A stretch of DNA of 35,769 nucleotides, taken from NCBI GenBank assembly GCA_016946835.1, contig JACVTC010000374.1:1-35769 (forward strand). Direction: 5' to 3'. The notes under the pieces are model-generated. The model was not told the DNA's origin. It made no database searches and worked only from the letters and a program-made list of their open reading frames with translations. Below are positions 1 through 35,769 of the stretch, in pieces; the stretch's first letter is position 1, and the number at the start of each line of letters is the position of its first letter. Position numbers and translations under genes: made by a program. Origin of the DNA: Neocallimastix lanati (nom. inval.) (Eukaryota; Neocallimastigomycota; Neocallimastigomycetes; Neocallimastigales; Neocallimastigaceae).

Positions 1-3000
1 ACCCCTTGGTTCACTGCTTCCGATTCTTCCGCTACTAATACTGACTTTTGGTTAACGCTAGGAAAACAATTTCTCCTTTATTTTTACCATAAATTTCATT
101 GACTTCATTAGCTCGGAACGCTATATACCTTACTTCTTCCTCTTCCGTCGGAACTGGAACTCCTAGTCCCTTACCGAAACATACTTTTTTACCATCTTCT
201 TCTTCTCCTAACCTTCCCTCATCCCCATCAGCGCAGGGCCTCTATCTTCCTCTTCAACGACAACACATCCTTCTTTCTTCCATCCATTACACCGATTAAC
301 AATTTCTTCTTGACTACCCTGACTACCCTTACCATCCGATATTAAGTAGCCCTTAACAAGCACACATTTCTCTTGAGGAAGCATATCGCCTGCATTGAAG
401 GTACATTGATATGCCATAATATTGGAATCCCCTTTCTGTTGATCATACGTATTTTCTTCCGTTTCAGAGACTGCTTCCCCATTTACTTCTTTATACTTAT
501 TGCCTTTGTTATCAAAGTAAAGTATCGCCTTTCCTGCATTCCCAAGATCGGCATGCTCACTTCCATTAATATCTGTACATATTCCTTCAATTCCTACTTG
601 GATTTTATCGCTATTGATGCAATAATAATCATTAGCGCAGGCGCTATCCTCATTGCAATTTGAAAGTAAATTATCTTCAAGATAAATAATACTACCATCC
701 GTTCCAATTTTTATTGATACATTTTTTTCTGAATCTTCGCTTTGAACTCCTGGAAATTCATTATCTCTAATCGGAAGTGCTTGATATTTATTTACCTTCT
801 TCCGGTTTAATATCCATTGTGTCACTATCTTTAATTTGTAATTTGATATTGCCATCTCATCAACAATAAGATCTCCAATTTTTTTATTTTGACTTGGTTT
901 GAGGTCGTCTTCGCTTAACTCTTCACATTTCTTATTTTCACATTTAATTATACGTTTTTCATCTTCGTTCGCGTCGTTCGAGGTATTTATAAAGTATCCG
1001 TTGAGATCACTATCCTTTATCGAACACTCCGTCTTACCTTCACTTTTCGTACAGGTAATCAATTCTCCATTACCTCCTACAAAGTACTCTGGTTTGCCTT
1101 CTTCAGGATGACTTTCAATAGACGTACATTTAACGCTTCCATCTTCATCACTCACTGAACAATATATTAATTTACTCGGATCCCCTCCATCAATATACGC
1201 CGATGTTTCACTGACTTCTTCCAATTTACATTCAACGCTCCCATCGTCCTTTTCTTCACAATGTACAATACCTTTTTCATTACCATCTGGATAATATCCT
1301 GTATCATTACTGTCTGCTCTTTTACCAGTACAGTACGCATTTACACAGTGTACAATGACATCCGTGGGTTCTGTATTTACCTCCTTGATAACTACACTAC
1401 TCCCTTTAACCAGATAATATCCATCCTTTTCATCTGGCTTTCCTATAATCGTTTGTTCCGTATTACCAACAAATTTTTGATATTCAACTGTTTCCTTGAT
1501 TTGAACCATATAATTATCCGATTTGTCAATTAATTGACGTTCCACTCCTTGATCATTATTTCTTAAACAAATATTTAATTTATTAGGCGTTTGACTCTCA
1601 TCAATTTTAATAGTGCTTAGAAGTGCTGCTGTACAATCATTCGTTGATGATTCTTTGCTCCAATTTTTAGATTTAGTATATTTATGGATGATATCGCTAG
1701 TATCTTCAATAACCATATATCCATCACTTTCTATACACTCTCCAGATTCACAATAAAAGAGATAAATACGATCGCCCGCTGATAATTTGGGTGAAATATC
1801 TTCATACACATTATCATAATCTTCTTCCAATTGCTTGTACGCGCTTATTTCATCCGATGGATCATTCTTCCACTTATAAACTTCGCCATCTTCTTGGAAT
1901 TCATAGAGATAATATTCATTTCCCACTTTAATGACATAATTCTTTTGGTCTTTTCCTTTGAAATATTCATCATTCACAATATAACTGATCGTATTCGCCG
2001 TACTTGAAGAATAATATTTAATCATTTTTTCAATTGTTAATGGTGAGTTTTTCCCTTTAGTACCAACTGCTACATAATTTCCCGCGTTGTCTTGAGAAAG
2101 TTCAACACTGAGTTCCTTTTTTAAACAAAGATAATTCTTTCCCGATTTCTTGAGAATTTCTCCGCTTTTATCTTCACATTTTAATTTTGAATCTTCTTTA
2201 GCTACATATGGACTCGCTCCAGATCGGTCGTTAGTAAAAGTATAAATAGATGATCCTGTGAGTGCATAACCAGCGACCAACTGACATGTATTTGTCTTCC
2301 CTTCACATTGGTAGATACCAACACCTTCACGCGAACTTTCATTATTAAAATCAGTAGTTGATGCTGGTCTTACAACATTTCCTCCATCTTTATAATTGAC
2401 TTGATAGCCATCTTCCATGGTTTTCAACGTAAATGAATTCGTGGTAGCTTTCACTACTACATACGAATCTTGGTGACTGCCGTTAAATATACTTCCGCTT
2501 GATGCATCAATGATATATTCTTTACCATTAATCATTCCTCCATTCTTTGAGTCATTTATATTTATACAAAGATTATCACCATTTAAAAGAGCTCCAACTG
2601 TACTGCATGAAGTATCCGTTGGTACAATTCTTTCATTCGTCGCCGTCGTAGCAATACTCACTGAATAATAACCGCTTACAGGGTTACTATCCGTAGATTT
2701 TAAATAACCATACGTTTGTTTACACCCCTTACTACTATCACAATCATACAATCCCAAACTACTTAATCCTTCTTCTATTACGGTGGTGTTCGCTGGTAAT
2801 GAAAATGCCTTGCCATTATCTCGAATAACTCCATATAATCCACTATCAAGTGTCGTTCCTGTAATATCCCCGACAGAGAAAATATTATGAATGGCTCGAA
2901 CTAGCATTTTTTTATTATTCTTATCAATTATATAGTCGACTTTTTCTTCACTACTTTCAACGAATGGTATGCTTTCCTTGGAATTAATGCAAAATTCAAT

Positions 3001-3737
3001 TTTACCATTACTTTCATCTTCAATTTTAATAATTCTACCAACATTAGAGGAACAATCCCCTGTTGATAACGGTTCAACTTTTCCATTACTATTATTACTG
3101 AAACTTTGAATTTCATAATAATCGCTACCATCAGTAATATATCCTGTATTAGAGACACAAATACCATTACTATCACAATTGAAAAGCTTCAAATCTATAA
3201 ATTTCGTAGCAAATTGTAAAGATGTATATTCTTTCATTGAATTTTTATCGATGAGATTGGGTCCTGCTTTTTCATCATAGAGATTATTTAGAATGATACT
3301 ATTACTACTTATACTCGCTACAATGGCCTTACTGCTATAGGCTTTAAATACTGAACCACTAACTGGTGATGGAATAATAATATTCGTAGCTGACGAATCC
3401 GTAGTCCAATCGTTTGACACTCCATTTGAACAGAATTGTCCAGAAGAAATTAATTGTCCATTACCTTCAGTGTTTGAACATGCTGAATTTGTAGGTGAAA
3501 CTACTGTATTAGAAGTACTAGCTGGATTGTCAATAGAGTAATAGACTGTTGGGGTATCCTCCGATTTTAAATAACCCACTGTTTGTTTACAAATATTGGC
3601 ACTGGTTCCGGTTTTACAATTAAAGTACGCTAAATTATTTAATATAAGAGAAATGTCTAAACTTGTTTGTGCTGTATCCATAAGCGTTGCCGTTTCAACA
3701 TTCACTAAATTGGCACCATCCGCAATAATTCTAGATC
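1..3737 (-). CDS. Gene L exon 11 (partial): A/B modules then short acidic Cys repeats; indel-damaged
   Basis: The acceptor is AAATAG before 3737. There is no intron in at least 3.7 kb. It opens with A (I-C-K-Q-T-V-G-Y-L-K) and B (C-D-S-N-G-I-C-V-S-N-T-G-Y-I) modules, then another A (K-G-C-K-Q-T-Y-G-Y-L-K). From about residue 840 it becomes short ~30-40-residue acidic repeats of the form I-x-C-x(n)-C-x(n)-G/Y-Y/F. Compared with gene R there are single-base indels near 52, 239, 792 and 857. The 792/857 pair compensate and garble about 22 codons. The 239 deletion causes the stop at 208, and homology continues in another frame to base 1. Confidence 0.68.
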
Positions 3738-5909
3738 CTATTTCCGTTATTATGTTATTATGTTATTATGTTATGATGTTATGATGTTATGATGTTATGA
3801 TGTTATGATGTTATGATGTTATGATGTTATAAATTTTAATATTAATTTTTTTTTTTTTTTTTTATTTTTTAATATTTTTTTTTTTTATAATATTAAATAT
3901 ATTTCTTTATTTAATAAAATTTTATAAAACAAAAAATATATATACAAATAAAAGGAAAAAATAAAAAATAATTAAAAAAAAATTTTTTATAATTTTTATT
4001 TTACCATTCAAGGTCTCCTTCATAAATATATTGGTAATGGCCCGGATGAAGAAAAAGCTGTTGCTGCTACTTTCATACCCAATATAATAACTCGATCCTG
4101 CCGTTAAAAATGGAATGCTTTCCTTTCCCAAACAAAGTTTTCCATAGGAAAGTAATTTCCAACCGTTATTACTGGTGCATGTATTCACAAAATCACTAGT
4201 AGATGATATTTTATTATTTGTCATTGTTGTACTAATCGCGTAATAATTATTATTATTACCACTTTTGATGTAGCCCTCACGGGCTGTACAATGGCCTTCT
4301 TCTGTACAATAACAAAGTTGTGTATTATTAATATTGCTATTCACTTGGGAGGTATCTTCAGTCCTCTTCAATGAAATAAAAAGATTTACCCCCTTTTCTC
4401 GATAATAATTATCTAAATAAAATGCATTCGCTGTCGATCTTACAATAATGCTTTCATCATTATTACTATCATTATCATTACTATTATTATCATTACTATT
4501 ATTATCTTTCTTGAAAAATACACTATCGCTGTTGGTAGAGAGAGAATAAATGTCGCCATTACTACTCATTGGATGTTCATTACCACTCTTAATACAAAGA
4601 TTTCCATTTTCAAGTAATTTACCTATATCATCATTATCTATTGAACATTTAGCATTTAAAACTTCTAATAATTGACCTTTTCCATTATTTTTAATATCAA
4701 AAGAATAATACTTTTTTGAACTATCACTGTCACTGGATGCTGCTAAATAACCATACGTTTGTTTACAAACAGTTAATTCGGAATTACATCTAAATAATAT
4801 CAAATTACCAATTATAGCCTTTAATTTAAAAGCTTTTATATCGTCGGGAATTTTTATAACTTTTATTTTTATACTATCTACTAAATTGAAATCTGATAGT
4901 TTATCATCTAATAAACAATAATTTATATTTATGAAAAAATAAATAAATAAGTAAATAAATAAATAAATAAATATGTAAATAAATAAATAAATATGTAAAT
5001 AAATAAATAAATATGTATATAAATGAATGAATATAAATATAATTTAAAAAATATAATTTGTAATATATAAAAAATATTTCGTTATAATATAAAAATATAT
5101 ATACATATATTTTTTTTTTTTACTTAATAATATTTAAAAATAAATAAATATTAATAATAAAAAATTTTTTATGGTGTTAAAATACAACAAAATATAAAAA
5201 ATAAAATATAATAAAAAAATTAAAATTTTCTATAAATATTGTTATTACTAATTAATAAACGAAATATATATACATTATTATTATTTTAAACTATTTTATA
5301 TTTATCTATTCATTCATTCAATCATATACTATTTCTATTTCTATCTCTATCTCTATCTTTATTGTTTATCTTTATTTCTATTTATTTATCTCTTATTTCT
5401 ATCTATTTATTATTTTTATTCGATTATTTATTTTTTCTTATTTTATATCTATTTATTTATTATTTATTTATCTTTTTTAATTAGTTTTTAATAAAATTTT
5501 AATGTTTGTTACTGTAAACTACTCTTATTTATTTATTTATTTATTTTTTTTTTTTTTAATTAGTTTTTTATAAAATTCTAATGTTAATTACACTGTAAAT
5601 TACTCTTATTATTATTATTATTATTATTTTAATTAGTTTTTTATAAAATTTTAATCTTATTTACTGTAAATTATTTTATTTCTTTATTATCTACTTATGC
5701 TTCATTCATTTTTATTTTACTTGAATTGAATTGAAATGATTTAATTTACTTTGAATTATTAAATTATAAAAATTAAATTGAATTTTATCATCAATTTCTC
5801 ATTTTTATTTTTATTTTATATTTTTTTACATCGTTAAATAGTAAAAATATTTTAATATATATATATATATATTTTTTATATATATTTCTTCATAAAATAT
5901 GTATTTTAA

Positions 5910-5976
<67 letters not shown>

Positions 5977-8900
5977 TTTATTTTTAATCTTTCAATAATT
6001 TTGGATATTTACCCTCTAATTTTATTTTGGCAATTATATTTGGAATTAATTTTGTCAATTTATATGTATCATCATCTTCCTTGATAATATAATTACTTTG
6101 ATTTGATGAAGTTGATGGAAATTCTACACTATTAACACTATCAATACAAAGTTTTTTACTGCTATCAATTTCTATTATTTTGCCTGTTGCTGAATTACAA
6201 GTGGAACCAAAACTATTTAGTGTAGGATTCTCTGATGGTATTTCATAATAAGCGTTATTGTTATTTGCATAACCTTCAGCTTTCAAACAAAAACCGTCTT
6301 TATCGCAAATATAAAGAGATAACTCAGAAGGAGAAGAAATACCTGAAGGACTAATTAATTTATTGGATTCAAATAATTTTACTCCATTATCAACTGAAAC
6401 TTTAAATAAAAAAAGTATATATATATATATATATATTAAATATTATTTTTAAATAATATATTAATAATGTATACAAAGAATATATATAAATAAATTAAAT
6501 AAATAAATGCATAGATATTATGATATTATGTAAATAAATAAACATTACATATATTATAATATATATATAAATAAATAAGTCAAAATAAATAATTTAAATA
6601 GATTTAAATAAATAAAAAAAAAAAAAAAAAATTAAATGAATGTATGTAATATAAATAAAAATAAAAATAAAAAAAAAGAAATTAAAATAAAAATTAAAAA
6701 CTTACTATTAACAATATTTTGAAAGACATAAGAGTTGGCGTCAGAATAAATTAAAATGTTGTTGGTTGTACTATCAAATACTGACCCTCCAGGATTATTT
6801 ATAATATAAGTATTATTATTTGTTGTTGCAAATTCCCCTTTAAGATTACCTCCCAAACATAGACTTTCATCACTCATTAATTTTGCAGTTTCAGTATTTG
6901 AACAACTAGTACTCGACGACAACTCATTGGGTTTAATCTCCTCATTATTTTTATTATATCCAATAGAATAATACTTAGTACTTAAATTGCTTCCTAACTT
7001 AATATATCCATAGGTTCGTTTACAGGACAAGACATCACTATTAGATTCTTCTTGAACACAATAGTAAAGGCCAATATTATTTAAATCAGTTAGTTCAGGA
7101 GTATCTTCCTGCTTTATCGTTTGTGAGGTTTTATTATTTACTATATTCGTTCCTGATTTAAGATCTTTTATTTTATATTTTATAGGGTAATTATTTTTAA
7201 TATAAAAATAGTTATTATATAATAATTGAAATAAAGTAAACAAAACGAAAAAGAAAGCAAAACAAAATAATAAATTTATATATATATATATATATATTAT
7301 TATTGTTATTAATAATAATTTATTGTAATTTAGTATTATTATTATTATTAATAATAATTTATTGTAATTTAGTATTATTATTATTTATTATTATTATTTA
7401 TTATTATTATTTATTATTATTATTATTTATTTTTATTATTTATTATTATTATTTATTATTATTATTTATTATTATTATTTATTATTATTATTTATTTTTA
7501 TTATTTATTTTTATTATTTATTATTATTATTTATTATTATTATTTATTATTATTATTTATTATTATTATTATTTATTATTATTATTTTAATTATTAATGG
7601 TCAATTACCTTTAAGTACATCAATTAAAAATATAGAATGGATAGAGGTAACAAGTTTATATGTTTGTTCGATACTATCATTTTCATTTATCTTTGCTACT
7701 CTAATTATATAATTTTCTACCAATGAACTATTTTTATCTAAAAAATCAATAGTTTCATCATTAATACTTATACATAGTTTTCCATCACTTCTTAATTCAC
7801 CAATGTTATTGATTTCTTTACAAGTTGCTTTAGTTTCATACATTTTTGAAACTGTTCCATCAGATACAAATGAATAATAATTATTGTTATTAGTAACAAA
7901 ACCTGTTTTTTGAATACATTTACCATTTATTTCACAAGTAAAGACTTTCAATTTATTGTATGAATCAATATTAATTTCTTCTACTTTGATTTGGGTATTT
8001 GAAATGGTAAGAACAACATAATCACCACTATAGAGATTATCATAATAAAATGAATTCAATGTGGCATTATATCCGATTACAATATTATTCTTGCTTTCAC
8101 TATTATCGTCTGCAGAAGCAGGATCAGGTATACTAATAAATACGTTGTGTTTTGGAACGTTAATTACATATATTTCATCTTTACTTTGTTTAAATTCAGC
8201 GACCGCCGCATTAGCCTCATCAGTATCAAGATAAAGTCCTTCATTTTCAGTTTTTATTTTACCAACAGTACATATCGCCTCTGCTGTAGTTATTGAATTA
8301 GTTCCACTAACATTGATTTCATAAACGGTGCTTCCTCCTTTCAAATAACCATAAGTTTGAACACACTTTTTCAAAGAATCATCGATTTTACAATTGAAGA
8401 AAAATAAATTTGAAAGGATGGAGGCTTCAATCTCTTTGGAGACGTCGGCGTTTGTAAATTTTTTTATTTGGAATCCGATATTATAAATATTAAGACCATT
8501 ATTGGGATACTCATTCTCTATATTATTTTTGTATAAAAAAAATATTAATAAAATTAATAAATAAGATATTATTGTTTAATTTAATTTTTCATTATATAAA
8601 ATAAGATACACATATATGTAATATATGCTAAAAAGCAAAAATATTTTATATATATATATATATATAAATTTATCTTAAATTACCTAATAATGTAACTTTA
8701 GCTATTAAATTTTTGGCGGTTTTTACTAATCGATATTTATTATTGATTTCATATATAATATAATTATTTAATTTGTTGGAAGAATCCGGAAATTCTATAG
8801 AATCAGTACCTCCAATACAAAACTCTTTATTGCTATTCAGGACACCTGTTGTATTATTGTCTAAGCAATCACTATTAGCATCACCATTCATTTTTGTAGA

Positions 8901-11900
8901 TGATCCTGAAAGTATGGAATAATAACCATTACTATTCTTTGCGTATCCTTCTGCGGAATAACAAATTCCTTCAGAATTACAAATATATAGTGATAAACTA
9001 CTTCCATCATCAATATCAGAAGTTACAGTTAATAATTTGTTTTTTTCAAATAATTTTACACCCCCATCATTCGTATCTAAATATCAGTGAAATATAAATT
9101 ATAAAATATTATATAATAGATTTTAATAAAAAAAAAGTTTAGAAAGTTAAGAAAAAAAATTTTTTATTAATAAAAAAATGAAATATAAAATGGTCAGTTT
9201 CATGAAAAAAGATAAATAAATAAAATAAAAAATAGTAATTATTTATTTTTTTTTTTTATTTCTTTTTTTTTTTTTTTTTAATATTATTATTTTTTTTAAA
9301 AAATATACATATATTATATTATTTAAGAAAATAAAAAAAAATAATGATAAAAATATATATATAATAAAGAAAAACTTACTATCTACAAGATTATTAAGAA
9401 CATGAGAATTGATCGTGGATTTTATTAAAATGCTTTTAGTACCGTTTGAAAATATCGAATCACTGCGACCGGACATAACGTAAACTGAATCCGCTAATGA
9501 TCCAGAATTTGTACCACCAAGACAAAGTCCACCTGAAGAAGTTAACTCTCCAATTATACTTTGAACGTCTTGACATGTTTTAACTCCAGAATTTGAATAC
9601 TTACTATTTGTGTTATTAGAGGCAATAGCATAATATTCTGACTCAATTTTAATATAACCAAAAGTTTGATTACATAATTTAGTCTTGTTACGATCGCACA
9701 AAAATAGTACTATATTCTTTAAAACATAGTAATTGATTTTATCTGTAGTCGTAACTATTTCGGAGGTTTCAACATTTACTATATTTGTTCCATCACTCGC
9801 ATCTAGAAAAACAATTTTTTAATATTTTTTTTTTTTTAAAAAAAAAGATTACAAAAAAAAAAAAAAAAAATACGTTATTTAAGAAAAATGAATAAAAAAA
9901 ATGTATGTATATAAAGTAATATATATATATTAAATCAATTTAACATAAAAAATAAAAAATAAAAGAAAATAAAAAAAAAAATAAAAAAAAAATTGAAAAG
10001 TAAATAAAAATTTTCTATTTATGTAAAGTGGATGAATTATAAAATATAAAATTTTCCATTCTTAACAAATAAAGTAAAATAAAATAGAAATAAAAAAAAA
10101 TAAAGAAATAATTACCTTCAACTTCTCTAATTATAAATATATTTTTTTTAGCTATTATTAAACTATAGGTAGATCCATTATAACTCATATAATATTTGGT
10201 ACCGTCAGTCAAGAATCCAAGAGCATAACTAATGTTATTATTTACACAGAGTTTTCCACCAGTAGTTAATTGATTAATGCTACTACAATCAGTATAAAGT
10301 GATGCTACTTTTGATGAATTACTACTATTTGTTAATTCGAAATATTCATTTTTTCCATTTGTGACAAAACCACCTACTTGAGTACAGATACCCTCTATAT
10401 TACAACTGTAAGCTACCAAGCTCGATTCATCTATTGTTTTATCAATTGCAGTAGTTTCAATTTTTGAAGCTTTTGTGGTAAGAACAATGTCTTCACTACA
10501 AAAGTTATCATAGTAAAACGCTGAATCAGTTGCTTTAATAACAATATTTTTTTTTGTATCATCTTCGTTTTTTAAAAAGATATTATCAGTACTGACACTT
10601 ATAACATATTCTTTATAGTTAATCATAGTTTCTTCTATTACAGAACTTTCTGAATTAATAAGACATAAACTTCCATTCGGTTGTAATTTTCCTACATCAT
10701 TATCTGTAGCACATGTTGGTAATGGTGTTGAGGTTAAATCAACAATTGTATTTATTTTATCTTTATTAAATGAATAATACGTCGGAGAACTATCATTTGA
10801 TTTAATATAACCAAAAGTTTGTTTACAAACATTAGTAGAGGTATCACAATTAAAGAGTGCCAAATCATCTTTATTGTTTGTTAAATCTATAGCAGTACTA
10901 GTTCCTAAATCAATTTTGTCTAAACTATCGGTGTTAATTACATTAAACTTTGGAAGGTCACCTATAAATATAGCATAATAAAATATAATAAATAAAAAAT
11001 AAAAAATAATTGATTCATTATTATTAATAATTCTATTTTTTTTATCAATACTATAATAACATAATTAAATGAATGAATATATTATAAAAATTGAGAAAAT
11101 TAGCTGATAAAAAATATTCTTTCATTTTAACTGCCTCTCAAAAATAAATAAATATATATATATATATATATTTATATATAATTTTATTTTTTTATTATTA
11201 TTTTACTTTTTGAAATGTTGACCTTTTTTTTATTTGGATTGTAATTGTAATTTATTTATATTTTTAAAAATAAATATATATACTTTTTTTTTAATTTTTT
11301 ATTTTAATATTGATTACTCTAACTTTTTTTTTTATTATTTTTATTTTAATATTGAATACTCCAATTTATTTATTTTTTTTTTTTTTTATTTTAATAATGG
11401 GTACTCCAACTTTTTTATTTTATTTTATTTTATTTTTTTTATTTTAATATTGAATTACTCCAACTTATTTTTTTTTTATAATATGTACTCTTTTTTTTTT
11501 TTTTTTTTTTAAATTAGCCTTTTTTTTATTTTTTATTTTTTATTTTTTTTTTTTTTTTTTTTTTTTTTTGAATTTTAATAATGAAATGGTTTAATTTTTG
11601 TTTTGTTTTATTTATTTATTTCTTAATAATAAGTATTTAAACTTTTTTTTTTTTTATAATAATTCTTTTTATAATTAAATTTAATTTATCATACCTGAAT
11701 AGTTATGGTCTTCTATTGCAAATATATTCGGTATTCCTCTAACAAGTGAATAGTTATTTCCATCTTTTTTGAAAATATAATATGCTTTATCACCATTTGT
11801 TAAAAAACTAATACTCTCATGCCCAAGACAAAATTTATGATAATTATCTAATTTACCGATGGACTCAGAGGTACATTCATTGTCTTGATTTACTGGAGTT

Positions 11901-14006: not shown

Positions 14007-15060
14007 GGTATAATATATTATATAGAAATTAAAATATATATATAAATAAAAATAAAAATAAATTTTTTATTTATGTATTATTCTAATTTTGTTTTTCATA
14101 TCATCAATTATTTCTATTATATTGATTATTTTTTATAAGAAAATAAATATATATATTTTTAATTTATTTTAATGTATATTTTTATTATATTTTTATTATT
14201 AAAAAAAAATTTTTTTTCCTGTACTATTAATTATTTAATTTTTAGTTAAAAAAAAAAAAAAAAAAAGTTTAATTTGTATTGTTCTTACTATTAAAAATAT
14301 TATAGTTCTGTTTATAGATTCATTTATAAATATAATAAAATTATTTATTTTATCATTATTTATTTATTAATTCCTTATATTAAATTTATTTAATTTCTAT
14401 TTATTAATTCATTAATATTGTATTTTTTATAATTTTTCAAACTTAATTGTAAATTTTTTTTATTTAAAGTTTTAATTATTAGAAGGGTAGTTATAATCTG
14501 TTTATGATTAATAATATTATTAATATTATTACCAGCTCTTTATACTGTTCATTTATGTTAATTAATATATTTATTTAAGTAATATTTATTTGTTCATTTA
14601 TAAAATATAAAGTTTTTATTTATTTTATTGATCAAAATTATTTAATTCTATTTATATGTTTATTCATATTAATTATTACATTTATTATAGTTTTATTTAT
14701 TTCTTTATTTATATTAATTATATTATTTATTTAAATATTATTAATTCATTTGTATTAAATACAATATATTTATTTAAATTCTATTAATCTGTACATTTAT
14801 ATTAATTGGTATATGATTCTATTTATTTGTTCAATTAAATATATTTTAATATTAATTATATTTATTTGTTCATTTATATTATTTTTTTATATAAGTTCTA
14901 TCAATTTGTACATTTATATTGATCAGTACATTTATATTAATTAGTACATTTATTTAGATACTAGTTATTTGTTCAATTAGATTTATTATAAATTCTAATT
15001 GTGTGTTTATAATTTATTCATTTATATTAATATTATTTAATCATTTTTATTTAAAAATTT
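14007..15060. repeat. Upstream region of gene L, diverged inverted homology with the gene R upstream region
   Basis: No gene seen. Several blocks still match 20,455-21,201 in reverse complement, for example the stretch around 14,210-14,330 with 20,820-20,950, and around 14,930-15,040 with 20,455-20,570. The homology is far lower than in the tracts. It holds the presumed gene L promoter. I cannot assign a TATA box in this AT background. Confidence 0.5.
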
Positions 15061-15069
15061 ATTTAAATA

Positions 15070-15450: not shown

Positions 15451-15501
15451 TGTATTTTATATGTATTTATTACTATATTAATAACTTAACTTTAGATTTA
15501 C

Positions 15502-18545: not shown

Positions 18546-18546
<1 letters not shown>

Positions 18547-18804: not shown

Positions 18805-18840
<36 letters not shown>

Positions 18841-20454: not shown

Positions 20455-21201
20455 TTTATGAATAATATTAAATAAATGAATGAATTATAAATACATAATT
20501 AGAATTTATAATAAATGTAATTAAACAAATAATTAGTGTCTAAATAAATGTACTAATCAATATAAATGTATGAATTAATACCACTTAAATAGATTTTTGT
20601 TAATTAATATAAATATATAAATTAATAACATTTAAATAAATTATAAAATTAATATAAAGCAAGAAATAAATAAAATCTTTAGAAATTTGATATAAACGAA
20701 CATATAAATAGATTTATCAATAAAAAATGTTTGAATGACCATAAAATAATATATTAATAAATTGATAAATAGAAATTAAATAAATTGAATATAAAAGATT
20801 AATGAATAAATAAAGATAAAATAAATAATTCTTATATTATTTATAAATGGATCTATAAACAAAACTATAATATTTTTAAAAGTAAGAATAATACTAATTA
20901 AATTTATTTTTTAACAAAATAATTAAATAATTAATTGTACAGGAAAAAAAATTTTTTTTTTTTTTTTTTAATTTTATTTATTATAATAAAAACATTTTAC
21001 ATATAAAATTAAATTTAATTAAAAAAATATATTTATTTATTTATTTTTTTCCTTAACAAAAATTAATCAATATTTATATATTACATAAGAAATAATTCAT
21101 GATATGAAAAAAATTGAAATATTCAATAAATAAAAAATTCCATTTTTATTTTTATTTCTATTTTTTATATATTTTTAAAAATCCTATATAATATATTATT
21201 C
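20455..21201. repeat. Upstream region of gene R, diverged inverted homology with the gene L upstream region
   Basis: No gene seen. Blocks correspond in reverse complement to 14,007-15,040. Presumed promoter of gene R; no element assignable. Confidence 0.5.
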
Positions 21202-21289
21202 ATGATATTAAAGAATTCCCTATATTATATATTTAAAAATAGTCTATTTTGTATACTGCTACTGTATCAACTACGATATGCCCTGGCTG
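21202..21289 (+). CDS. Gene R exon 1: start codon and signal peptide
   Basis: Starts MILKNSLYY. It has lysines in the n-region, a hydrophobic core LFCILLLYQL and an A-L-A end, then the split codon G|AA. The donor GTAAAT starts at 21290. Length and phase match gene L exon 1. The ATG is the first in frame. Confidence 0.77.
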
Positions 21290-24200: not shown

Positions 24201-25884
24201 GACAAAATTGATTTAGGAACTAGTACTGCTATAGATTTAACAAACAATAAAGATGATTTGGCACTCTTTAATTGTGATACCTCTACTAATGTTTGTAAAC
24301 AAACTTTTGGTTATATTAAATCAAATGATAGTTCTCCGACGTATTATTCATTTAATAAAGATAAAATAAATACAATTGTTGATTTAACCTCAACACCATT
24401 ACCAACATGTGCTACAGATAATGATGTAGGAAAATTACAACCGAATGGAAGTTTATGTCTTATTAATTCAGAAAGTTCTGTAATAGAAGAAACTATGATT
24501 AACTATAAAGAATATGTTATAAGTGTCAGTACTGATAATATCTTTTTAAAAAACGAAGATGATACAAAAAAAAATATTGTTATTAAAGCAACTGATTCAG
24601 CGTTTTACTATGATAACTTTTGTAGTGAAGACATTGTTCTTACCACAAAAGCTTCAAAAATTGAAACTACTGCAATTGATAAAACAATAGATGAATCGAG
24701 CTTGGTAGCTTACAGTTGTAATATAGAGGGTATCTGTACTCAAGTAGGTGGTTTTGTCACAAATGGAAAAAATGAATATTTCGAATTAACAAATAGTAGT
24801 AATTCATCAAAAGTAGCATCACTTTATACTGATTGTAGTAGCATTAATCAATTAACTACTGGTGGAAAACTCTGTGTAAATAATAACATTAGTTATGCTC
24901 TTGGATTCTTGACTGACGGTACCAAATATTATATGAGTTATAATGGATCTACCTATAGTTTAATAATAGCTAAAAAAAATATATTTATAATTAGAGAAGT
25001 TGAAGGTAATTATTTCTTTATTTTTTTTTATTTCTATTTTACTTTACTTTTTTTGTTAAGAATGGAAAATTTTATATTTTATAATGCATCCGTTTTACAT
25101 AAATAGAGAATTATTATTTATATTTCATTTTTTATTTATTTATTTATTTTTTTTTTTTTATCATTCTTTATTTTTTATCTTTTATGTTAAATTTATTTAA
25201 TATATATATATATATATATAATTTTATATACATACATTTTTTTTATTCATTTTTCTTAAATAACGTATTTTTTTTTTTTTTCGTAATCTTTTTTTTTTTA
25301 AAAAAAAAAAAAAAAAAATATTAAAAAATTATTTTTCTAGATGCGACTAATGGAACAAACATAGTAAATGTTGAAACCTCCAAAATAGTTAATCCTCCAA
25401 GTAGTACAGAAGAAATCGACTATTATGTTTTAAATAATATAGTACTTTTCTTGTGTAGTACTATTAATAGTATTAATTTGTGTAAACAAACCTATGGTTA
25501 CATTGGTAATCCTACCTCAGGAAAATACTATTCCATTGCTTCGAATAATACAAATAGTAAGTATTCAGATTTCGAATTCTCTTGCTCAACTACTTATATT
25601 GGAAAATTAAATTCATCAGGAGGTCTCTGTCTTGGTTCTAATACAGGTGTATTAATTACCAATGAGAATTCCAATGCAGTTTACGTCATGCCCGGTGCCA
25701 GTGATTCAATATTTTCAAATAGTGCTAATAGTATTTTAATCAAATCCACCACCAATTCTCATGTACTTAATAATCTTGTAGATAGTAAGTTATTCTTTTA
25801 TATTATATATATTTTTTATTATTATTACTTTTTTTTTATTTTCTTAAATAACATAATATATGTATATTTTTAAAAAAAATAATA

Positions 25885-25935
<51 letters not shown>

Positions 25936-26035
25936 TACTACCTTCTATTTTATTTATTTATTTTATGAAACTAACTATTTAATATTTCATTTTAATTTTT
26001 TTTAAATTAAAAATATTTTTTTTCTTTCTTTCTTT

Positions 26036-26082
<47 letters not shown>

Positions 26083-26101
26083 ATATTTTTTTTATTATAT
26101 T

Positions 26102-26137
<36 letters not shown>

Positions 26138-29100
26138 AGATACCCAAGATGGGGGTGTAAAATTATTTAAAGATAATAAATTATTAAGTGTAACTTCTAC
26201 CATTGTTGATGGAAATAATTTATCACTGTATATCTGTAATTCCGAAGGAATTTGCTATCCAGCAGATGGATATGCAAAAATTGACGATAATAAATATTAT
26301 TATATAAATGATGGGGTATCTAATGAATGGATAACATCTAATTGTAGCTGTATAGACAATACTAAAATAGGCATGCTGAATAGCAATAATGAGTTTTGTA
26401 TTGGAGGTACTGATTCTATAGAATTTCCGGATTCTTCCAACAAATTAAATAATTATATTATTTACGAAACCGGTAAAAATTATCGATTAGTAAAAACCGC
26501 CGAAAATTTAATAGCTAAAGTTACATTATTAGGTAATTTAAGATAAATTTATATATATATATATATATATAATATTTTTGCTTTTTAACATATATTATAT
26601 ATATGTGTATCTTATTTTATATAATGAAAAATTAAATTAAACAATAATATCTTATTTATTAATTTTATTAATATTTTTTTTATACAAAAATAATATAGAG
26701 AATGAGTATCCCAATAATGGTCTTAATATTTATAATATCGGATTCCAAATAAAAAAATTTACAAACGCCGACGTCTCCAAAGAGATTGAAGCCTCCATCC
26801 TTTCAAATTTATTTTTCTTCAATTGTAAAATCGATGATTCTTTGAAAAAGTGTGTTCAAACTTATGGTTATTTGAAAGGAGGAAGCACCGTTTATGAAAT
26901 CAATGTTAGTGGAACTAATTCAATAACTACAGCAGAGGCGATATGTACTGTTGGTAAAATAAAAACTGAAAATGAAGGACTTTATCTTGATACTGATGAG
27001 GCTAATGCGGCGGTCGCTGAATTTAAACAAAGTAAAGATGAAATATATGTAATTAACGTTCCAAAACACAACGTATTTATTAGTATACCTGATCCTGCTT
27101 CTGCAGACGATAATAGTGAAAGCAAGAATAATATTGTAATCGGATATAATGCCACATTGAATTCATTTTATTATGATAATCTCTATAGTGGTGATTATGT
27201 TGTTCTTACCATTTCAAATACCCAAATCAAAGTAGAAGAAATTAATATTGATTCATACAATAAATTGAAAGTCTTTACTTGTGAAATAAATGGTAAATGT
27301 ATTCAAAAAACAGGTTTTGTTACTAATAACAATAATTATTATTCATTTGTATCTGATGGAACAGTTTCAAAAATGTATGAAACTAAAGCAACTTGTAAAG
27401 AAATCAATAACATTGGTGAATTAAGAAGTGATGGAAAACTATGTATAAGTATTAATGATGAAACTATTGATTTTTTAGATAAAAATAGTTCATTGGTAGA
27501 AAATTATATAATTAGAGTAGCAAAGATAAATGAAAATGATAGTATCGAACAAACATATAAACTTGTTACCTCTATCCATTCTATATTTTTAATTGATGTA
27601 CTTAAAGGTAATTGACCATTAATAATTAAAATAATAATAATAAATAATAATAATAATAAATAATAATAATAAATAATAATAATAAATAATAATAATAAAT
27701 AATAAAAATAAATAATAAAAATAAATAATAATAATAAATAATAATAATAAATAATAATAATAAATAATAATAATAAATAATAAAAATAAATAATAATAAT
27801 AATAAATAATAATAATAAATAATAATAATAAATAATAATAATACTAAATTACAATAAATTATTATTAATAATAATAATAATACTAAATTACAATAAATTA
27901 TTATTAATAACAATAATAATATATATATATATATATATAAATTTATTATTTTGTTTTGCTTTCTTTTTCGTTTTGTTTACTTTATTTCAATTATTATATA
28001 ATAACTATTTTTATATTAAAAATAATTACCCTATAAAATATAAAATAAAAGATCTTAAATCAGGAACGAATATAGTAAATAATAAAACCTCACAAACGAT
28101 AAAGCAGGAAGATACTCCTGAACTAACTGATTTAAATAATATTGGCCTTTACTATTGTGTTCAAGAAGAATCTAATAGTGATGTCTTGTCCTGTAAACGA
28201 ACCTATGGATATATTAAGTTAGGAAGCAATTTAAGTACTAAGTATTATTCTATTGGATATAATAAAAATAATGAGGAGATTAAACCCAATGAGTTGTCGT
28301 CGAGTACTAGTTGTTCAAATACTGAAACTGCAAAATTAATGAGTGATGAAAGTCTATGTTTGGGAGGTAATCTTAAAGGGGAATTTGCAACAACAAATAA
28401 TAATACTTATATTATAAATAATCCTGGAGGGTCAGTATTTGATAGTACAACCAACAACATTTTAATTTATTCTGACGCCAACTCTTATGTCTTTCAAAAT
28501 ATTGTTAATAGTAAGTTTTTAATTTTTATTTTAATTTCTTTTTTTTTATTTTTATTTTTATTTATATTACATACATTCATTTAATTTTTTTTTTTTTTTT
28601 TTATTTATTTAAATCTATTTAAATTATTTATTTTGACTTATTTATTTATATATATATTATAATATATGTAATGTTTATTTATTTACATAATATCATAATA
28701 TCTATGCATTTATTTATTTAATTTATTTATATATATTCTTTGTATACATTATTAATATATTATTTAAAAATAATATTTAATATATATATATATATATATA
28801 CTTTTTTTATTTAAAGTTTCAGTTGATAATGGAGTAAAATTATTTGAATCCAATAAATTAATTAGTCCTTCAGGTATTTCTTCTCCTTCTGAGTTATCTC
28901 TTTATATTTGCGATAAAGACGGTTTTTGTTTGAAAGCTGAAGGTTATGCAAATAACAATAACGCTTATTATGAAATACCATCAGAGAATCCTACACTAAA
29001 TAGTTTTGGTTCCACTTGTAATTCAGCAACAGGCAAAATAATAGAAATTGATAGCAGTAAAAAACTTTGTATTGATAGTGTTAATAGTGTAGAATTTCCA

Positions 29101-29239
29101 TCAACTTCATCAAATCAAAGTAATTATATTATCAAGGAAGATGATGATACATATAAATTGACAAAATTAATTCCAAATATAATTGCCAAAATAAAATTAG
29201 AGGGTAAATATCCAAAATTATTGAAAGATTAAAAATAAA

Positions 29240-29306
<67 letters not shown>

Positions 29307-32300
29307 TTAAAATACATATTTTATGAAGAAATATATATAAAAAATATATATATATATATATTAAAATATTTTTACTATTTAACGATGTAAAAAAATATAA
29401 AATAAAAATAAAAATGAGAAATTGATGATAAAATTCAATTTAATTTTTATAATTTAATAATTCAAAGTAAATTAAATCATTTCAATTCAATTCAAGTAAA
29501 ATAAAAATGAATGAAGCATAAGTAGATAATAAAGAAATAAAATAATTTACAGTAAATAAGATTAAAATTTTATAAAAAACTAATTAAAATAATAATAATA
29601 ATAATAATAAGAGTAATTTACAGTGTAATTAACATTAGAATTTTATAAAAAACTAATTAAAAAAAAAAAAAATAAATAAATAAATAAATAAGAGTAGTTT
29701 ACAGTAACAAACATTAAAATTTTATTAAAAACTAATTAAAAAAGATAAATAAATAATAAATAAATAGATATAAAATAAGAAAAAATAAATAATCGAATAA
29801 AAATAATAAATAGATAGAAATAAGAGATAAATAAATAGAAATAAAGATAAACAATAAAGATAGAGATAGAGATAGAAATAGAAATAGTATATGATTGAAT
29901 GAATGAATAGATAAATATAAAATAGTTTAAAATAATAATAATGTATATATATTTCGTTTATTAATTAGTAATAACAATATTTATAGAAAATTTTAATTTT
30001 TTTATTATATTTTATTTTTTATATTTTGTTGTATTTTAACACCATAAAAAATTTTTTATTATTAATATTTATTTATTTTTAAATATTATTAAGTAAAAAA
30101 AAAAAATATATGTATATATATTTTTATATTATAACGAAATATTTTTTATATATTACAAATTATATTTTTTAAATTATATTTATATTCATTCATTTATATA
30201 CATATTTATTTATTTATTTACATATTTATTTATTTATTTACATATTTATTTATTTATTTATTTACTTATTTATTTATTTTTTCATAAATATAAATTATTG
30301 TTTATTAGATGATAAACTATCAGATTTCAATTTAGTAGATAGTATAAAAATAAAAGTTATAAAAATTCCCGACGATATAAAAGCTTTTAAATTAAAGGCT
30401 ATAATTGGTAATTTGATATTATTTAGATGTAATTCCGAATTAACTGTTTGTAAACAAACGTATGGTTATTTAGCAGCATCCAGTGACAGTGATAGTTCAA
30501 AAAAGTATTATTCTTTTGATATTAAAAATAATGGAAAAGGTCAATTATTAGAAGTTTTAAATGCTAAATGTTCAATAGATAATGATGATATAGGTAAATT
30601 ACTTGAAAATGGAAATCTTTGTATTAAGAGTGGTAATGAACATCCAATGAGTAGTAATGGCGACATTTATTCTCTCTCTACCAACAGCGATAGTGTATTT
30701 TTCAAGAAAGATAATAATAGTAATGATAATAATAGTAATGATAATGATAGTAATAATGATGAAAGCATTATTGTAAGATCGACAGCGAATGCATTTTATT
30801 TAGATAATTATTATCGAGAAAAGGGGGTAAATCTTTTTATTTCATTGAAGAGGACTGAAGATACCTCCCAAGTGAATAGCAATATTAATAATACACAACT
30901 TTGTTATTGTACAGAAGAAGGCCATTGTACAGCCCGTGAGGGCTACATCAAAAGTGGTAATAATAATAATTATTACGCGATTAGTACAACAATGACAAAT
31001 AATAAAATATCATCTACTAGTGATTTTGTGAATACATGCACCAGTAATAACGGTTGGAAATTACTTTCCTATGGAAAACTTTGTTTGGGAAAGGAAAGCA
31101 TTCCATTTTTAACGGCAGGATCGAGTTATTATATTGGGTATGAAAGTAGCAGCAACAGCTTTTTCTTCATCCGGGCCATTACCAATATATTTATGAAGGA
31201 GACCTTGAATGGTAAAATAAAAATTATAAAAAATTTTTTTTTAATTATTTTTTATTTTTTCCTTTTATTTGTATATATATTTTTTGTTTTATAAAATTTT
31301 ATTAAATAAAGAAATATATTTAATATTATAAAAAAAAAAAATATTAAAAAATAAAAAAAAAAAAAAAAAATTAATATTAAAATTTATAACATCATAACAT
31401 CATAACATCATAACATCATAACATCATAACATCATAACATCATAACATAATAACATAATAACATAATAACGGAAATAGGATCTAGAATTATTGCGGATGG
31501 TGCCAATTTAGTGAATGTTGAAACGGCAACGCTTATGGATACAGCACAAACAAGTTTAGACATTTCTCTTATATTAAATAATTTAGCGTACTTTAATTGT
31601 AAAACCGGAACCAGTGCCAATATTTGTAAACAAACAGTGGGTTATTTAAAATCGGAGGATACCCCAACAGTCTATTACTCTATTGACAATCCAGCTAGTA
31701 CTTCTAATACAGTAGTTTCACCTACAAATTCAGCATGTTCAAACACTGAAGGTAATGGACAATTAATTTCTTCTGGACAATTCTGTTCAAATGGAGTGTC
31801 AAACGATTGGACTACGGATTCGTCAGCTACGAATATTATTATTCCATCACCAGTTAGTGGTTCAGTATTTAAAGCCTATAGCAGTAAGGCCATTGTAGCG
31901 AGTATAAGTAGTAATAGTATCATTCTAAATAATCTCTATGATGAAAAAGCAGGACCCAATCTCATCGATAAAAATTCAATGAAAGAATATACATCTTTAC
32001 AATTTGCTACGAAATTTATAGATTTGAAGCTTTTCAATTGTGATAGTAATGGTATTTGTGTCTCTAATACAGGATATATTACTGATGGTAGCGATTATTA
32101 TGAAATTCAAAGTTTCAGTAATAATAGTAATGGAAAAGTTGAACCGTTATCAACAGGGGATTGTTCCTCTAATGTTGGTAGAATTATTAAAATTGAAGAT
32201 GAAAGTAATGGTAAAATTGAATTTTGCATTAATTCCAAGGAAAGCATACCATTCGTTGAAAGTAGTGAAGAAAAAGTCGACTATATAATTGATAAGAATA

Positions 32301-35300
32301 ATAAAAAAATGCTAGTTCGAGCCATTCATAATATTTTCTCTGTCGGGGATATTACAGGAACGACACTTGATAGTGGATTATATGGAGTTATTCGAGATAA
32401 TGGCAAGGCATTTTCATTACCAGCGAACACCACCGTAATAGAAGAAGGATTAAGTAGTTTGGGATTGTATGATTGTGATAGTAGTAAGGGGTGTAAACAA
32501 ACGTATGGTTATTTAAAATCTACGGATAGTAACCCTGTAAGCGGTTATTATTCAGTGAGTATTGCTACGACGGCGACGAATGAAAGAATTGTACCAACGG
32601 ATACTTCATGCAGTACAGTTGGAGCTCTTTTAAATGGTGATAATCTTTGTATAAATATAAATGACTCAAAGAATGGAGGAATGATTAATGGTAAAGAATA
32701 TATCATTGATGCATCAAGCGGAAGTATATTTAACGGCAGTCACCAAGATTCGTATGTAGTAGTGAAAGCTACCACGAATTCATTTACGTTGAAAACCATG
32801 GAAGATGGCTATCAAGTCAATTATAAAGATGGAGGAAATGTTGTAAGACCAGCATCAACTACTGATTTTAATAATGAAAGTTCGCGTGAAGGTGTTGGTA
32901 TCTACCAATGTGAAGGGAAGACAAATACATGTCAGTTGGTCGCTGGTTATGCACTCACAGGATCATCTATTTATACTTTTACTAACGACCGATCTGGAGC
33001 GAGTCCATATGTAGCTAAAGAAGATTCAAAATTAAAATGTGAAGATAAAAGCGGAGAAATTCTCAAGAAATCGGGAAAGAATTATCTTTGTTTAAAAAAG
33101 GAACTCAGTGTTGAACTTTCTCAAGACAACGCGGGAAATTATGTAGCAGTTGGTACTAAAGGGAAAAACTCACCATTAACAATTGAAAAAATGATTAAAT
33201 ATTATTCTTCAAGTACGGCGAATACGATCAGTTATATTGTGAATGATGAATATTTCAAAGGAAAAGACCAAAAGAATTATGTCATTAAAGTGGGAAATGA
33301 ATATTATCTCTATGAATTCCAAGAAGATGGCGAAGTTTATAAGTGGAAGAATGATCCATCGGATGAAATAAGCGCGTACAAGCAATTGGAAGAAGATTAT
33401 GATAATGTGTATGAAGATATTTCACCCAAATTATCAGCGGGCGATCGTATTTATCTCTTTTATTGTGAATCTGGAGAGTGTATAGAAAGTGATGGATATA
33501 TGGTTATTGAAGATACTAGCGATATCATCCATAAATATACTAAATCTAAAAATTGGAGCAAAGAATCATCAACGAATGATTGTACAGCAGCACTTCTAAG
33601 CACTATTAAAATTGATGAGAGTCAAACGCCTAATAAATTAAATATTTGTTTAAGAAATAATGATCAAGGAGTGGAACGTCAATTAATTGACAAATCGGAT
33701 AATTATATGGTTCAAATCAAGGAAACAGTTGAATATCAAAAATTTGTTGGTAATACGGAACAAACGATTATAGGAAAGCCAGATGAAAAGGATGGATATT
33801 ATCTGGTTAAAGGGAGTAGTGTAGTTATCAAGGAGGTAAATACAGAACCCACGGATGTCATTGTACACTGTGTAAATGCGTACTGTACTGGTAAAAGAGC
33901 AGACAGTAATGATACAGGATATTATCCAGATGGTAATGAAAAAGGTATTGTACATTGTGAAGAAAAGGACGATGGGAGCGTTGAATGTAAATTGGAAGAA
34001 GTCAGTGAAACATCGGCGTATATTGATGGAGGGGATCCGAGTAAATTAATATATTGTTCAGTGAGTGATGAAGATGGAAGCGTTAAATGTACGTCTATTG
34101 AAAGTCATCCTGAAGAAGGCAAACCAGAGTACTTTGTAGGAGGTAATGGAGAATTGATTACCTGTACGAAAAGTGAAGGTAAGACGGAGTGTTCGATAAA
34201 GGATAGTGATCTCAACGGATACTTTATAAATACCTCGAACGACGCGAACGAAGATGAAAAACGTATAATTAAATGTGAAAATAAGAAATGTGAAGAGTTA
34301 AGCGAAGACGACCTCAAACCAAGTCAAAATAAAAAAATTGGAGATCTTATTGTTGATGAAGATGGCAATATCAAATTACAAATTAAAGATAGTGACACAA
34401 TGGATATTAAACCGGAAGAAGGTAATAAATATCAAGCACTTCCGATTAGAGATAATGAATTTCCAGGAGTTCAAAGCGAAGATTCAGAAAAAAATGTATC
34501 AATAAAAATTGGAACGGATGGTAGTATTATTTATCTTGAAGATAATTTACTTTCAAATTGCAATGAGGATAGCGCCTGCGCTAATGATTATTATTGCATC
34601 AATAGCGATAAAATCCAAGTAGGAATTGAAGGAATATGTACAGATATTAATGGAAGTGAGCATGCCGATCTTGGGAATGCAGGAAAGGCGATACTTTACT
34701 TTGATAACAAAGGCAATAAGTATAAAGAAGTAAATGGGGAAGCAGTCTCTGAAACGGAAGAAAATACGTATGATCAACAGAAAGGGGATTCCAATATTAT
34801 GGCATATCAATGTACCTTCAATGCAGGCGATATGCTTCCTCAAGAGAAATGTGTGCTTGTTAAGGGCTACTTAATATCGGATGGTAAGGGTAGTCAGGGT
34901 AGTCAAGAAGAAATTGTTAATCGGTGTAATGGATGGAAGAAAGAAGGATGTGTTGTCGTTGAAGAGGAAGATAGAGGGCCCTGCGCTGATGGGGATGAGG
35001 GAAGGTTAGGAGAAGAAGAAGATGGTAAAAAAGTATGTTTCGGTAAGGGACTAGGAGTTCCAGTTCCGACGGAAGAGGAAGAAGTAAGGTATATAGCGTT
35101 CCGAGCTAATGAAGTCAATGAAATTTATGGTAAAAATAAAGGAGAAATTGTTTTCCTAGCGTTAACCAACAAGTCAGTATTAGTAGCGGAAGAATCGGAA
35201 GCAGTGAACCAAGGGGTGTATTTGAATTGGAGTGCTAAGGAAGGATTCAAAGATGGTATAATCTATTGTGGGACGGAAAATGACATTGAACAATGTAAAA

Positions 35301-35769
35301 TCATGAAAGGATCAGGATATTATCTTGATGCCAGCTCATTGTTTAAAGAAAAGGGACAAACGAAGAAAAGAAAAAGAGCGGAAGAGACAGGAATTTATAA
35401 TTGGTTAATTTATTGTGGCGACAGGAAATGTCAAATGATTGCACCAGATAAGGGTTATTATGTTAATGCAGATACGTTAGATAAAGGAAGTCTATTATTA
35501 GATCATGCGTTAATTCGATGCCCAGACAATACCTACTGTATTCCAGTTGATGGAGAAGAGAATCAAACGTTTATAAACCATCATAATGATACGATAATTC
35601 AATGTGATAGTACAAGTTGTTCTGGAGAAAACAGGAACATATTAGGAAGTAAGAAAATTCCGACATACTTTATAAATTATGACGAGGATCATGATGATTC
35701 TACGATTTTGATTAAATGTAGTGGCTATACTAATCAACAAGGTACGTGTATAGCAACATCAGTACCCGC
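21202..35769 (+). CDS. Gene R: giant secreted scaffoldin-like Cys-rich modular protein, 11 exons (3' end beyond window)
   Basis: Exons: 21202-21289, 21414-22220, 22455-23426, 24160-25005, 25341-25784, 26140-26532, 26699-27607, 28052-28510, 28817-29203, 30309-31211 and 31479 to the edge. The spliced frame is open for 10,499 nt with no stop. Donors are GTAAAT, GTAAAT, GTATGA, GTAATT, GTAAGT, GTAATT, GTAATT, GTAAGT, GTAAAT and GTAAAA. Acceptors all end in AAG or TAG. The short introns are 21290-21413 (124 bp), 22221-22454 (234), 26533-26698 (166) and 31212-31478 (267). A signal peptide leads into repeated A/B Cys-Gly-Tyr modules and then short acidic repeats. I see no catalytic domain, dockerin-like motif or membrane segment in the visible part. 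A scaffoldin role (extracellular non-catalytic assembly protein) is inferred from family resemblance. A surface or adhesion protein of unknown function is the alternative. Confidence 0.75.
21414..22220 (+). CDS. Gene R exon 2: N-terminal mature region, divergent A-like module
   Basis: 269 codons, phase 1. The acceptor is ATAAAG and the donor GTAAAT. An N-terminal ~90 residues with cysteines (QEC, EKC, QNC, STC) precede a Y-T-C-S-T-N-K-C-V-K-T-S-G-Y-I-K core and a KICLGVNS segment. The ends (KLQ-x-C near the start, TAN-x-IYH at the end) match gene L. The interior differs strongly, and the D-N-S-E-E repeat of gene L is absent. The coding frame is open well upstream of the internal ATG at 21692. 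Confidence 0.7.
22455..23426 (+). CDS. Gene R exon 3: A+B module pair
   Basis: 324 codons, same length and architecture as gene L exon 3. After the diverged first 48 residues only two amino-acid differences remain, at bases ~23,186 and ~23,226. The donor is GTATGA, the one donor differing from the GTAA pattern. Confidence 0.75.
23427..24159 (+). other. Gene R intron 3 (733 bp)
   Basis: GTATGA..TATAG. Same length and repeat content as gene L intron 3 (degenerate repeat about 23,601-23,836, AGTTGGAGTA motif). Inside tract 2. Confidence 0.67.
24160..25005 (+). CDS. Gene R exon 4: A+B module pair
   Basis: 282 codons beginning G-D-L-P-K-F after the TATAG acceptor and ending R-E-V-E before GTAATT. 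The A core contains CKQTFGYIK and the B core IEGICTQVGGF. Lies wholly inside near-identical tract 2. Confidence 0.75.
25006..25340 (+). other. Gene R intron 4 (335 bp)
   Basis: GTAATT..TCTAG. A/T homopolymers. Divergence from gene L begins about 36 bases into the intron, near 25,042. Confidence 0.64.
25341..25784 (+). CDS. Gene R exon 5: single A module
   Basis: 148 codons, phase 1. The acceptor is TCTAG and the donor GTAAGT. NIVNVETS opening, L-C-S-x7-L-C-K-Q-T-Y-G-Y-I core, GLCLGSNTG, DSIFSN and LNNLVDS end. Seven codons longer than gene L exon 5 and diverged in the middle. Confidence 0.72.
25785..26139 (+). other. Gene R intron 5 (355 bp)
   Basis: GTAAGT..ACATAG. Contains a run of about 44 A (25,890-25,933), about 40 T (26,038-26,077) and 27 T directly before the acceptor. 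Confidence 0.65.
26140..26532 (+). CDS. Gene R exon 6: single B module
   Basis: 131 codons. No complete internal frame flags it, but the spliced phase is continuous. The acceptor ACATAG follows a 27-T tract and the donor is GTAATT. Core L-Y-I-C-N-S-E-G-I-C-Y-P-A-D-G-Y-A, then EFCIGGTDSIEF and LIAKVTLLG. A NCSC cluster in the middle replaces a different sequence in gene L. Confidence 0.7.
26699..27607 (+). CDS. Gene R exon 7: A+B module pair
   Basis: 303 codons, first codon completed as GAG after the ATATAG acceptor. The A core contains KKCVQTYGYLK and the B core NGKCIQKTGF. First exon of near-identical tract 1. The donor is GTAATT. Confidence 0.74.
27608..28051 (+). other. Gene R intron 7 (444 bp)
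   Basis: GTAATT..AAAAG. Filled by the AATAATAATAAA microsatellite (about 27,627-27,921), same length as in gene L. Confidence 0.66.
28052..28510 (+). CDS. Gene R exon 8: single A module
   Basis: 153 codons after an AAAAG acceptor, ending with consensus donor GTAAGT. SCKRTYGYIK core and SLCLGG segment. The in-frame ATG at 27973 lies in the intron. Confidence 0.72.
28511..28816 (+). other. Gene R intron 8 (306 bp)
   Basis: GTAAGT..TTAAAG, A/T-rich, 18-T run and AT run. Nothing else seen. Confidence 0.63.
28817..29203 (+). CDS. Gene R exon 9: single B module
   Basis: 129 codons after a TTAAAG acceptor. DKDGFCLKAEGYA core, KLCIDS and YIIKE. The donor is GTAAAT. Same sequence as gene L exon 9. 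Confidence 0.72.
29204..30308 (+). other. Gene R intron 9 (1,105 bp)
   Basis: GTAAAT..TTAG. Mirror copy of gene L intron 9: ATT microsatellite 29,241-29,305 and three-copy repeat 29,536-29,743. Confidence 0.66.
29241..29305. repeat. ATT microsatellite in gene R intron 9
   Basis: Mirror of 5,911-5,975, no length difference. Confidence 0.85.
30309..31211 (+). CDS. Gene R exon 10: A+B module pair
   Basis: 301 codons between the TTAG acceptor and the GTAAAA donor. TVCKQTYGYL core, Asn/Asp-rich linker, EEGHCTAREGYI core and SIPFL..ITNIF end. Same as gene L exon 10. Confidence 0.74.
31391..31470. repeat. 8-bp minisatellite in gene R intron 10
   Basis: Seven ATCATAAC then three ATAATAAC units, directly before GGAAATAG and exon 11. 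Copy number identical to the left arm. Confidence 0.85.
31479..35769 (+). CDS. Gene R exon 11 (partial): A/B modules then short acidic Cys/Gly/Tyr repeats
   Basis: 1,429 codons open to the edge, no introns. Residues ~1-160 are type A, ~165-295 type B, ~300-455 a further A, then degenerate modules. From ~840 on there are short repeats (cores such as IVHCEEKDDGSVEC, LIYCSVSDEDGSVKC, LITCTKSEGKTEC, IIYCGTENDIEQC and LIYCGDRKCQ), usually followed by Y-Y/Y-F. The short-repeat part is rich in Glu/Asp/Lys and visibly less AT-rich than exons 2-10: 28 of the 60 bases at 34,921-34,980 are G or C by my count. A basic KKRKR run is encoded at 35,363-35,377. Most of the short repeat region probably lies beyond the window. 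Confidence 0.75.

Follow-up and report, generated by a model that had tools for sequence, protein, structure and literature searches.

The window analyzed here, a 35,769-bp contig (JACVTC010000374.1, hereafter C306) taken whole, comes from the AT-rich assembly of Neocallimastix lanati (nom. inval.), which comprises 199,045,447 bp in 762 contigs. It carries two giant scaffoldin-like genes that diverge from a common spacer and mirror each other as an imperfect palindrome, and both of its ends fall inside exon 11. The two genes have 11 exons each in mirror order, and the long near-identical tracts that they share have borders that are homologous and diverged. The account we favor, with a probability of roughly 0.72, is that this is a real head-to-head pair derived from an old inverted duplication, whose ~20-kb arms exchange sequence by gene conversion. 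The pattern of tracts suggests conversion as the cause of the likeness between the arms.

Positions 1-13063 mirror positions 22038-35217 at 96.4% identity over 13,230 columns, and a second inverted block pairs 13785-15079 with 20155-21412 at 72.7% identity. The longest ungapped match between the arms is 8,022 bp. Across the 7,760 bp from 26599 to 34358, the right arm has zero differences from the left arm, and chance likeness of the arms is therefore excluded. The first-pass annotation of this sequence had described head-to-head inverted arms with start codons diverging 7.2 kb apart, and both features are borne out (start codons at 14006 on the minus strand and 21202 on the plus strand). Its figure of over 30 kb for the palindrome is real but too small, as the palindrome goes on in contig C212 and reaches ~20 kb in each arm. 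The broader claim that two giant, modular, scaffoldin-like genes with many exons each diverge within an imperfect palindrome is backed by the junction of C306 with C212, the restored right reading frame, and a dockerin-rich genome.

At that junction, C212 holds a leftward open reading frame of 2,300 amino acids (aa) and a rightward one of 2,069 aa, which are the 3' halves absent from the window, in the correct orientations. C306 fits between the adjacent C212 bases 949427 and 949428 with zero bases missing or doubled, and the right reading frame crosses the join uninterrupted through the 3,502 codons of exon 11. By these sequence matches, C306 belongs between C212:949427 and 949428, and the window would be the inner 35.8 kb of the palindrome. 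Once rejoined, the arms align over 19,998 columns at 97.6% identity. The order of the genes is taken as truly head to head because the fit is flush and the right frame is restored, and neither would be expected from a random join of two non-adjacent genes or two alleles. Such a false joining by the assembler is made more plausible by the nature of C306, which is only 35.8 kb long and has length differences resembling errors at one of its ends, and by the way contigs break or overlap at scaffoldin loci (contig C320 and the start of contig C75 are collinear over 9.0 + 5.1 kb at 100%). Foldbacks in long reads are also known to tangle assembly graphs, but virtually none occurred in the HiFi sample examined in the same study (PMC12870357). 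A foldback, moreover, copies an arm exactly, whereas here the center, exons 5-6, and the tails differ between arms. Both distinct flanks are present on C212, and a search of the assembly (best 40 of 11,385 candidates) turned up no other full-length copy of the left flank. We therefore give little credence to an artifact.

Identity between the arms forms a mosaic. From the center outward, exon 1 is 79% identical in aa, exon 2 is 38% (59.5% in nucleotides), exon 3 is 96%, and exon 4 is 100%; exons 5 and 6 drop to 67% and 72%, and exons 7-10 and exon 11, covered in this exon-by-exon comparison over its first 950 aa, return to 100%. The earlier statement that both arms encode the same 11-exon protein thus stands for the exon series itself, for exons 4 and 7-10, for 950 aa of exon 11, and nearly for exon 3, but fails for exons 2, 5, and 6. 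The first near-identical tract is flanked on both sides by diverged stretches that lie a few kb apart. The second has its left copy in window positions 1-8617 and in C212 from 949427 downwards, and the arms differ in it only by four length differences of one base each, all at the left contig end. It stops abruptly within the last ~45 codons, and the right arm is diverged straight after C212:955611. Homologous, diverged borders are clear on the inner side and at the exon 5-6 patch.

This pattern points to conversion within an older inverted pair, because a single young duplication gives no 2.5-kb stretch of 99.8% identity between exons of 38% and 67%. A recent inverted duplication would need its diverged patches (exon 2, exons 5-6, and the tail) to have been imported later from other family members or to have changed fast under selection. 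The very long identity, microsatellites included, agrees with a young event, as does the fact that three other loci score above the mirror copy when right exon 2 is compared; for left exon 2, one other locus scores about equal to its mirror. Neither exon 2, however, matches anything elsewhere above 43%, and among 112 matches the two exon 5 copies are most similar to one another, at 70%, with the next match at 40%, which leaves no donor for that exon above 40%. The divergence of the patches also extends to introns and the upstream region. We consider a recent duplication quite improbable. On sequence comparison, exon 2 appears instead to have drifted to the distance seen between other paralogues of the family, with a dN of 0.55 and a dS of 0.73 between left and right; the first modules may have changed fast or in a diversifying manner. 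The first-pass annotation had read the palindrome as an architecture for generating variants, and here the mosaic points the other way: most of the gene is kept alike between arms, and differences are limited to exon 2, exons 5-6, and the 3' tail.

Some of the evidence for gene conversion in an old inverted pair is qualified, and several points weigh against it. In its favor, the introns flanking exon 2 are 82% and 88% alike, above the 59.5% of exon 2, and the upstream regions are 82-89% alike (69-74% in three shuffles), but low-complexity DNA inflates these intron and upstream identities. Similarity past the second tract also counts in its favor, with a score of 27 against 19.7 +/- 2.7 for shuffled sequence, a value reached by 5 of 500 shuffles, but the similar stretch is short. 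The 100% identity of this tract may come partly from pooled reads, as the tract is perhaps longer than the reads; pooling is unlikely for the first tract because two substitutions were kept there and diverged stretches lie only a few kb away. The locus structure and arm order were read from assembled contigs, and the two arms were compared with each other, so that conversion may have run in either direction. Dispersed copies of the family that are not palindromic neighbors are also 90-100% alike over many kb, so homogenization does not need a palindrome. By these sequence comparisons homogenization is family-wide, and this wider reach speaks against giving the palindrome a special part in it.

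C212 as assembled adds a further objection, since it joins both 3' halves directly and so contradicts C306. This direct junction is either a hairpin center left out by the assembly or a deletion allele. On the latter reading, C212 would represent a real allele or nuclear type that has lost the 35,769-bp center of the palindrome by deletion and retains the two 3' halves as mirror images with 552 bp between them. Long palindromes can lose their centers. C306 matches the segment missing from C212 down to the last base, which is what a bubble between two real structures would produce, and the breakpoints are 552 bp apart in offset, with one base common to both ends. On the other hand, a few chimeric reads can be enough for an assembler to create this kind of junction, as can the omission of a hairpin edge, and the length errors at one end of C306 suggest thin support there. 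We regard a deletion allele as unlikely but worth keeping in view, and it is compatible with gene conversion between the arms.

Under gene conversion, an inverted duplication that arose long ago would have given the head-to-head pair, and exchange from arm to arm would have kept most of both genes alike. Three regions may have escaped: exon 2 together with the spacer, the patch of exons 5-6, and the 3' tail. The predicted outcome is two scaffolds that share a backbone of paired repeat modules and differ in their first modules. The left product, with its hydrophobic C-terminal tail, would probably be cell-bound, and the right product, which lacks the tail, would probably be released. More speculatively, and with considerable doubt, the palindrome could be viewed as a device for concerted evolution that keeps two scaffoldins identical over ~5,000 aa and lets them differ in the first modules, an inner module pair, and the C-terminal anchor. 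A single locus, with one divergent promoter region for both genes, would then supply two scaffolds, one bound to the cell and the other released. The assembly would also have caught a second allele without the center, both N termini, and the spacer.

The gene models agree with the secreted, modular type proposed at first pass: introns are GT-AG and phase 1, and the first exon resembles a signal peptide by eye. A pair of modules, A (~150 aa) and B (~130 aa), is encoded by each of exons 3, 4, 7, and 10; exons 5 and 8 carry one A, exons 6 and 9 one B, and exon 11 opens with two further A+B pairs. After C306 and C212 are joined, the right protein is complete at 5,569 aa and 619 kDa, and profiles made from the window's own modules match it strongly (i-E below 1e-30) at 8 A and 8 B modules. 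Relative to the right arm, the left frame is broken by four one-base length differences at window positions 48-858, and these look like consensus errors. The left gene ends in a hydrophobic tail (maximum 17-residue Kyte-Doolittle mean of 2.32), whereas the right gene terminates before it, and its last 100 residues reach only 0.96. The next paralogue on C212 (966435-976212) also bears a hydrophobic tail, as judged by eye.

The scaffoldin label fits by size, modules, and genome context, as far as sequence allows. Searches found no Pfam family above cut-off in the six proteins searched, no PDB chain match at E<=1 for exon 11, and no match to the exon 11 query in the protein collection; a module-profile search of that collection returned 8 unnamed relatives from JGI, the best 66-69% identical over 88% of the query. 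Against the exon 4 module pair (window 24162-25004), a pair of JGI-contig proteins without names (P0001 and P0002) show 66-69% identity, with 88% of it covered. With no named homologue among these matches, the proteins of the window could be giant secreted repeat proteins of another kind, such as adhesins or wall proteins. Their properties are, however, those published for fungal scaffoldins (PMC8262932, PMC12341934): more than 500 kDa (619 kDa for the right protein), a signal-peptide-like start, a modular and repeat-rich build, several paralogues, no similarity to bacterial cellulosome components in the Pfam and PDB searches, and a dockerin-rich genome, in which PF02013 was found at no fewer than 150 places among 1,440 candidates, with every listed hit above cut-off. 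Size, repeats, secretion, and the absence of known domains agree as well with the fungal scaffoldins in PMC10978972 and PMC12063362. A function outside the cellulosome accordingly seems to us hardly probable.

Elsewhere in the genome, exon 11 has long homologues with 48-49% aa identity in at least 12 further places (among the best 40 of 610 candidates). Within the scaffoldin-like family, the palindromic pair forms a lineage of its own. Some of the places with an exon 11 homologue are redundant contig ends: C320:10001-19000 and 20001-25083 equal C75:15082-6083 and 5083-1 at 100% identity. Scaffoldin copy counts are inflated because contigs overlap unmerged at such loci. When C320:10001-19000 was used as a query, 13 other places among 28 matches were 90-100% identical over at least 5 kb. 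No second head-to-head pair of the family, within a few kb, was present among the matches listed.

Feature coordinates are collected in Table 1. The outer parts of the spacer, 14007-15079 and 20155-21201, align with each other, and its middle does not align as one block. Within the spacer, 16788-17239 is a tandem array of ~63 copies of a 7-base unit, and similar arrays occur at dozens of sites in the genome. At 31388-31470, immediately ahead of the exon 11 acceptor, an 8-base unit (TCATAACA-like) is repeated in an array that the two arms share without differences. To the right of the right gene, C212:961999-965220 is a mobile element with a MULE transposase and FLYWCH domain (open reading frame 962955-964389, minus strand), present at a minimum of 38 other genome places over ~2.6-3.6 kb at 86-97% identity (best 39 of 9,843 candidates). 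Beside the scaffoldin gene on C320, ~5.8 kb within 20573-26433 recurs at more than 10 other places at 96-99% and is probably also a mobile element.

Table 1. Features of the window and of its continuation in C212
Feature	Coordinates	Strand	Remark
Left exon 1	13919..14006	-	Signal-peptide-like, 29 aa
Left exon 2	12881..13741	-	Diverged from right exon 2
Left exon 3	11695..12684	-	Module pair A+B
Left exon 4	10116..10961	-	A+B; 100% aa identity to right copy
Left exons 5 and 6	8684..9802	-	Exon 5, 9380-9802; exon 6, 8684-9076; diverged inner patch
Left exons 7-10	4005..8517	-	7609-8517, 6706-7164, 6013-6399, 4005-4907; 100% aa identity to right copies
Left exon 11	1..3737	-	Cut by contig end; resumes at C212 949427 down to 942527
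Spacer between start codons	14007..21201	none	7.2 kb, very AT-rich, no coding feature recognized
Right exon 1	21202..21289	+	Signal-peptide-like
Right exon 2	21414..22220	+	Three other loci outscore left exon 2
Right exon 3	22437..23426	+	Module pair A+B
Right exon 4	24160..25005	+	Module pair A+B
Right exons 5 and 6	25341..26532	+	Exon 5, 25341-25784; exon 6, 26140-26532; diverged inner patch
Right exons 7-10	26699..31211	+	26699-27607, 28052-28510, 28817-29203, 30309-31211
Right exon 11	31479..35769	+	Open at contig end; in-frame continuation from C212 949428
Near-identity tract 1	22584..25041		Right arm; 2,458 bp, 99.8%; two substitutions and two single-base indels relative to left
Near-identity tract 2	26599..35769		Right copy, on to C212:955611; 15,355 bp in total
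Right-arm 552 bp with no mirror inside window	35218..35769		Matches C212:948876-949427, the copy belonging to the left gene, at 100%

If gene conversion is indeed at work here, fungal scaffoldin families evolve in concert, and both the copy counts and the sequences of scaffoldins taken from current assemblies would be unreliable at such loci. The common backbone with varied ends would offer a natural test of the roles of the first module and the C-terminal tail in a fungal scaffoldin. The case also shows that assembly can excise a real palindrome center as a loose contig.

Fungal scaffoldins of the ScaA group in Neocallimastigomycota are described as repeat-rich, secreted, multi-copy proteins of more than 500 kDa that are unlike bacterial cellulosome parts, with a membrane anchor present in some and absent in others, and the cohesin of the system is described as not yet identified (PMC8262932). 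A published table gives 23-101 scaffoldins per genome, and the same paper reports an anaerobic fungus of this kind sequenced with 6-10 kb HiFi reads and assembled with Flye (PMC12341934). The present pair resembles this group in being giant, repeat-rich, and multi-copy, with secretion-signal-like starts and one member with and one without a tail, but differs from it in lying head to head in a palindrome with homogenized arms; in the titles and abstract openings that our literature searches listed, we found no description of palindromic head-to-head order or arm homogenization for Neocallimastigomycota scaffoldins. Foldback or palindromic artifacts of long reads (PMC12870357) share with this locus the mirror-image sequence and the trouble in the assembly graph, whereas the present arms are unlike in center, middle, and tail, and each is attached to a flank of its own. 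A gene-converting palindrome of scaffoldin-like genes is the description that suits the pair best, and conversion in palindromes is already known from sex chromosomes. A close likeness is to human Y palindrome P6, with inverted arms, more than 99.9% identity over long tracts, and a divergent gene pair, and with conversion tracts that average 2,068 bp and reach a maximum above 9 kb (PMC3723533). Unlike P6, the palindrome of N. lanati lies in a fungal genome with no sign of a sex chromosome, its arms retain strongly diverged segments such as exon 2, and dispersed copies of the family are homogenized too.

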